The translations under genes were made by a program, and so were the position numbers. A DNA stretch of 64,000 nucleotides, from NCBI GenBank assembly GCA_002011165.2, contig MTMI02000007.1, positions 1-64,000 on the forward strand. The letters are read 5' to 3'. This stretch comes from Candidatus Mnemosynella biddleae. Its GTDB lineage: Archaea > Halobacteriota > Archaeoglobi > Mnemosynellales > Mnemosynellaceae. Shown here one piece after another: positions 15,131-26,284 of this stretch. How positions within the stretch are numbered: position 1 is the first letter of the stretch; each line of letters starts with the position of its first letter. The notes under the pieces were generated by a model. That model searched no databases, was not told the origin of the DNA, and worked only from the letters and a program-made list of their open reading frames with translations.

Positions 15131-15143
15131 GGGCATCATAACA

Positions 15144-15152
15144 TTTATTTAT
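15144..15152 (+). promoter_or_regulatory. TATA box of tRNA-Trp
   Basis: TTTATTTAT is centred about 28 nt before the first base of the tRNA, the expected archaeal spacing. Confidence 0.5.
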
Positions 15153-15175: not shown

Positions 15176-15325
15176 GGGGCTGTGGCCTAGCCAGGAAGGG
15201 CGGCGGGCTCCAGCGGTTTATGATGATTAACGGGTCTGCTGAGACTTTGTTCGAGGAGGACCCGTTGGAGCTCTGATAGAATCGAAGAGACCCGCCGGTC
15301 GTGCGTTCAAATCGCACCAGCCCCA
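15176..15325 (+). tRNA. tRNA-Trp (CCA) with a 76-nt intron
   Basis: Acceptor GGGGCTG (15176-15182) pairs with CAGCCCC (15318-15324), then discriminator A. Anticodon CCA is at 15210-15212. The anticodon stem GCGGG pairs with CCCGC across an intron placed after base 37 (intron 15214-15289). The T arm holds GTTCAAATC. CCA is not encoded. The intron holds box C/D elements and guides that match this same tRNA. It stands alone between the CobD-like gene and a TauE-like gene. Confidence 0.95.
15214..15289 (+). ncRNA. Box C/D guide RNA inside the tRNA-Trp intron
   Basis: Box C ATGATGA at 15220-15226, D' CTGA at 15239-15242, D CTGA at 15273-15276; box C' is degenerate (15248-15260). The D guide pairs with GCTCCA of the anticodon loop and puts C34 opposite the fifth base upstream of box D. 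The D' guide CGGGTCTG matches CAGACCCG in the spliced anticodon arm and puts C39 at the same fifth position. This is the arrangement known for tRNA-Trp introns of other euryarchaea, which direct 2'-O-methylation of bases 34 and 39. The D' target spans the exon junction, so it exists as a continuous sequence only in spliced tRNA. Confidence 0.88.
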
Positions 15326-18499: not shown

Positions 18500-18587
18500 G
18501 GGCTCGTAGCTCAGTCAGGCAGAGCACCTGGCTTTTAACCTCGGGGAAGAAACCAGGTGGTCAAGGGTTCAAATCCCTTCGAGCCCG
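18500..18587 (+). tRNA. tRNA-Lys (TTT) with a 14-nt intron
   Basis: Acceptor GGGCTCG (18500-18506) pairs with CGAGCCC (18580-18586), discriminator G. Anticodon stem CCTGG pairs with CCAGG; anticodon TTT at 18534-18536. The extra sequence ACCTCGGGGAAGAA (18538-18551) after base 37 is an intron; a short repeat at the junctions makes its exact ends ambiguous by a few bases without changing the spliced product. The spliced tRNA is 74 nt. The gene directly precedes rpoH. Confidence 0.93.

Positions 18588-22199: not shown

Positions 22200-26284
<4,085 letters not shown>

Follow-up and report, generated by a model that had tools for sequence, protein, structure and literature searches.

The tRNA-Trp gene and its intron

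The window, a stretch of 64,000 nucleotides from Candidatus Mnemosynella biddleae, contains a tRNA-Trp(CCA) gene interrupted by an intron at the canonical site, between positions 37 and 38 (Table 1). Boxes C, D', C' and D follow one another in this order within the intron, a guide precedes each of D' and D, and box C' is degenerate. Each guide sets its target at the N+5 distance, position 34 for D and position 39 for D'. The Rfam family RF01133 (sR3, box C/D) matched the C-to-D core of the intron (15216-15278) with 50.1 bits at a cut-off of 41; the score at the intron was 38.6 bits when the whole genome was searched. The match in the window scored lower than that of the sister family, a difference for which the altered box C' and the 12-nt loop between D' and C' are plausible causes.

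Table 1. Features of the tRNA-Trp gene and its intron (positions of the window)
Feature	Position	Strand	Remarks
tRNA-Trp(CCA) gene	15176-15325	+	Spliced sequence gives the standard cloverleaf fold
Exon 1, positions 1-37	15176-15213	+	C34 = 15210, G37 = 15213; from the fold of the spliced sequence
Bulge-helix-bulge, 5' side	15208-15216	+	C32-C35 helix, bulge A36 G37/intron base 1, intron bases 2-3; almost all sequences retain the helix pairs
Intron, 76 nt	15214-15289	+	Directly after G37 (canonical 37/38); encodes a dual-guide box C/D sRNA
Box C (TGATGA)	15221-15226	+	Exact 12-nt distance from TGATGA to D' in 81/126 distinct sequences
D' guide, 12 nt (TTAACGGGTCTG)	15227-15238	+	Fifth base opposite C39
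Box D' (CTGA)	15239-15242	+	
Box C' (GGAGGA)	15255-15260	+	Degenerate; relatives have TGATGA or a sequence close to it
D guide, 12 nt (CCCGTTGGAGCT)	15261-15272	+	Fifth base opposite C34; pairing extends into intron bases 1-3
Box D (CTGA)	15273-15276	+	
Bulge-helix-bulge, 3' side	15282-15290	+	Last eight intron bases (-8 to -1) plus A38; in the precursor, doubles as the 5' portion of the D' target
Exon 2	15290-15325	+	A38 = 15290, C39 = 15291; from the fold of the spliced sequence

A bulge-helix-bulge motif was present at the splice sites. It has one mismatch in its central helix, C34.A (15210, 15285), which is common to 35 of the 37 near relatives, and nearly all other lineages have a C-G pair instead. 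The genome also encodes the RNP proteins and a splicing endonuclease: fibrillarin adjoining Nop5, two L7Ae-family proteins (one gene in the window, 26008-26271, plus strand, the second elsewhere in the genome) and an endonuclease of 344 aa with two domain matches.

The gene at 15176-15325 was not called by ARAGORN, probably because of the long intron. A tRNA-Lys(UUU) at 18500-18587 (plus strand), which has a 15-nt insert at 37/38, was labeled 'tRNA-Stop (tta)' by the same program. Upstream of the tRNA-Trp gene, the A/T-rich TTTATTTA at ~15143-15152, found by eye, is by its distance a candidate archaeal TATA box.

We also looked for further targets of both guides in the genome. Matches to the D' guide were no more numerous than those to the reversed pattern, and the D guide gave a mild excess with a 9-base pattern (20 vs 12).

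Conservation in relatives

In 80 of the 99 genomes examined, which share genus, class or phylum with Ca. M. biddleae, matches to sR3 with E <= 0.01 were detected, some of the weak ones being other sRNAs. From the sR3-matching genomes, together with an exon pattern run phylum-wide, we collected 146 loci of the same phylum with a tRNA-Trp intron of at least 30 nt, corresponding to 127 distinct exon-intron-exon sequences. The nearest set comprises 37 near relatives that we assign to Archaeoglobi by fit only, and a second set, which has U at base 39 (U39 set), appears haloarchaea-like by intron length and sequence type. The counts given below are of distinct sequences, not of independent events.

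Both guides were present and paired with their targets in 126 of the 127 sequences. The preliminary description had presented the intron as carrying two guides, one for position 34 and one for position 39, which is borne out by the boxes, the N+5 placement, the sR3 match and this conservation. In the remaining sequence, L135 (genome G259), the intron keeps the splice motif and has lost both guides. The alignment of relatives' introns suggested in the preliminary description revealed guide-target covariation at base 39, intron base 1 and the last intron base. Guide-target pairing was 97-100% at the right register and fell to 17-59% after a slide of 1-3 bases. The C'-D spacer was 12 nt in all sequences when a deviation of up to one base from the box C' pattern was allowed; with the pattern as used, 120 of 126 had a C'-like box at exactly this distance from D. 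The 12-nt C-D' spacer in 81 sequences corresponds to the lineages with a TGATGA box C, and box C differs from TGATGA in the U39 set.

Further reduction was seen in other relatives, including a 23-nt guide-less remnant of the intron in one (G064:C3:9930-10005) and an intronless tRNA-Trp in several (G062, G063, G071 and G089). Such loss of guide or intron fits the report, as cited in PMC7714728, that the tRNA-Trp intron is dispensable in H. volcanii. A separate scan of named genomes for the U39-type guide gave six matches. The sole archaeal one (L073) lacked a tRNA-Trp, and the others were bacterial records with no expected link to the guide system, which we take as chance.

Pairing with intron bases and the order of splicing and methylation

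In the precursor, the pairing of each guide extends over an exon-intron boundary, for the D guide through positions -9 to -11 and for the D' guide through position -3 (numbered upstream from each box). Positions -3, -5, -6 and -7 of the D guide form Watson-Crick pairs in 126/126 sequences. Beyond them, position -9 varies together with intron base 1 (G/C in 82, U/A in 37, A/U in 6 and G.U in 1), and positions -10 and -11 form Watson-Crick pairs with intron bases 2 and 3 in 99% and 98% of sequences. Against the spliced tRNA, the corresponding values for -9, -10 and -11 are 29%, 0% and 2%. Since intron base 1 sits in the splice bulge, its agreement with the D guide is unexplained by splicing. In the window, the D guide at C34 gives a run of 11 bp on the precursor and 8 on the spliced tRNA (here and below, G.U pairs are allowed in the runs).

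The D' guide behaves similarly. Positions -4 and -6 form Watson-Crick pairs in 126/126 sequences, and position -7 changes with base 41 (G/C in 88, U/A in 37, G.U in 1). Position -3 changes with the last intron base (C/G in 88, A/U in 37 and one mismatch), a Watson-Crick agreement of 99% compared with 68% for G37; in the U39 set, the A at -3 matches only the last intron base (U) and not G37. Dependence of the D guide on intron bases 1-3 and tracking of the last intron base by the D' guide together point to the unspliced precursor as the substrate of both guides. Thus, as judged from sequence comparison, both guides are built for the unspliced precursor, with methylation before splicing. This agrees with the published Haloferax conclusion that both modifications must precede splicing (H. 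volcanii RNomics 2008, PMC2584109).

The preliminary description had placed the D' target across the splice junction of the tRNA and derived an ordering constraint from it. This was not upheld, as D' -3 follows the last intron base rather than exon 1. The corresponding alternative, in which the spliced tRNA is the D' substrate and splicing comes before C39 methylation, draws on the window itself, where G at D' -1 pairs with C35 of the spliced tRNA and the run at C39 is 8 bp, compared with 7 bp on the unspliced form; this G is present in 33 of the 37 near relatives. Both splice junctions of the window read AG|A, i.e., the intron and exon 1 each end in AG, and therefore D' positions -2 to -8 find an equally good match at the unspliced 3' junction, accounting for seven of the eight pairs. 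Across the 126 sequences, the pair of D' -1 with C35 is formed in 41%, far from the agreement of -3 with the last intron base, and the C34 guide requires intron bases in any case. Together with the published order for both methylations, these data make splicing before C39 methylation very improbable.

Base 39 and its guide

Among the 126 sequences, D' -5 and base 39 are G/C in 89, A/U in 30 and G.U in 7. All 89 sequences of the C39 lineages have the C/G combination, and the U39 set is divided between 30 U/A and 7 U.G cases. The preliminary description had regarded base 39 and the guide as having changed together, relative to the Haloferax case; the joint change is seen, but it is not a departure specific to this locus, as C39 is the commonest state and the usual one in the phylum outside the haloarchaea-like set. 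In the sampled data, the change appears as one lineage-level shift with U.G intermediates: the seven haloarchaea-like sequences with U39 opposite a guide G, i.e., a U.G pair at the methylation site (within L096-L104), mark a possible path between the C39 and U39 states. Base 31 is always A in the U39 set and always G in the C39 sets; as it tracks base 39, the latter also answers to the anticodon stem.

The C39 variant is present in the literature. A published table lists 'Cm34 and Um39 (or Cm39)' (Hori 2018, PMC6313347), and a C39 target in P. furiosus tRNA-Trp is predicted in snoRNAdb, as cited in PMC7668247. As in the window, C39 is there the predicted D' target, with no apparent difference.

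Is the D' guide functional?

When P. furiosus tRNAs were studied by mass spectrometry, the C39 methylation predicted for tRNA-Trp was not detected in the analyzed set (PMC7668247), so C39 may be guided yet not always methylated. This speaks for an alternative in which only the D guide at C34 is functional and the D' guide is a relic or little used. The poor pairing of D' -1, the degenerate box C' of the window and the seven haloarchaea-like sequences with only a U.G pair at the D' target point in the same direction. On the other hand, the invariant Watson-Crick pairs at D' -4 and -6 and the changes at base 39, at base 41 and at the last intron base in step with the guide speak against a relic, and we regard this alternative as rather unlikely.

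More radically, the intron might be a splicing substrate only, its C/D features having arisen by chance. Single pairing runs do arise readily: a run of at least 8 anywhere in the tRNA was found in 12% of shuffled introns, so that the weight is carried by exact placement and conservation. In 200,000 shuffles of the intron bases, a run of at least 10 at C34 occurred in 29 and a run of at least 8 at C39 in 140, and both jointly are expected by chance at ~1e-7, if independent. Along with this dual placement, the Rfam match, the fixed spacer, the covariation and the conservation over many families of the phylum oppose a chance origin; it is refuted by the conservation, and we give it a negligible probability.

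Relation to known systems and a proposed account

Self-guiding tRNA-Trp introns were recognized around 2001 and occur widely, with box C/D RNAs described in H. volcanii (Cm34, Um39) and in Pyrococcus as sR50 (Clouet d'Orval 2001; Singh 2004; via PMC2584109 and PMC7994747). The arrangement was reported in at least 29 archaea (PMC2584109). The window resembles these systems in gene, intron position, boxes, two guides, target positions and fit to the precursor. It differs in its intron length (76 nt, compared with 103 nt), C at base 39 with G in the guide, and the GGAGGA box C', and in mutually complementary guides, a feature that the haloarchaea-like set lacks. According to the published work, the H. 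volcanii and Pyrococcus RNAs act in trans in vitro. The locus adds one more ordinary example to the known self-guiding tRNA-Trp introns.

We consider it very likely that a box C/D RNP formed by the intron methylates C34 and C39 of unspliced pre-tRNA-Trp and that splicing follows. The intron RNA, with L7Ae, Nop5 and fibrillarin, would direct 2'-O-methylation of C34 through the D guide and of C39 through the D' guide, probably acting in trans from another precursor or an excised intron. In vitro work favors action in trans (PMC2584109), which was also described by Yoshihisa 2014 (PMC4090602). Because each guide duplex would lie across an exon-intron boundary and mask the splice sites, the endonuclease would act after release, cutting the bulge-helix-bulge motif. 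This account builds on the gene, boxes, guides, spacing, conservation, covariation and RNP and endonuclease genes found at this locus and in its relatives; methylation at 34 and 39, action in trans and circularization would follow the published Haloferax and Pyrococcus work.

In a broad sample, much of the phylum thus retains the intron guide together with both of its targets, and the way the guides covary with the intron's first and last bases provides sequence evidence for precursor action of both guides. The comparison supports the conclusion based on Haloferax and leaves the known picture unchanged.

Complementarity between the two guides

The D' and D guides of the window are also complementary to each other, forming 11 bp (15227-15238 with 15259-15272; -16.5 kcal/mol), an energy that lies between those of the target duplexes (-13.4 or -15.1, and -20.6). 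The complementarity is 8 bp in the C39 lineages: between D' -3 to -10 and D -14 to -7, 97% of cells are paired in the 37 near relatives and 94% in the 52 other C39 sequences, compared with 41% in the U39 set. Overlap of the targets and the GA of box C' explain much of this pairing. Positions D -12 and D' -10, and among the near relatives also D' -9, are unconstrained by the target and mostly pair in the guide-guide helix. We therefore treat this complementarity, the sole unexplained extra of the C39 lineages, as a weak lead and not a finding.

The guide-guide hairpin imitates the anticodon stem, and a tentative and rather doubtful idea is that it is selected as an off state in a switch between splicing and methylation. 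In such an off state, a precursor not yet assembled into the RNP would stay able to fold for splicing, and strands would be exchanged with the anticodon stem at RNP assembly; the U39 set would lack this built-in switch. Taken as a whole, the intron gave a fold mildly more stable than that of shuffled sequences (z = -2.0).
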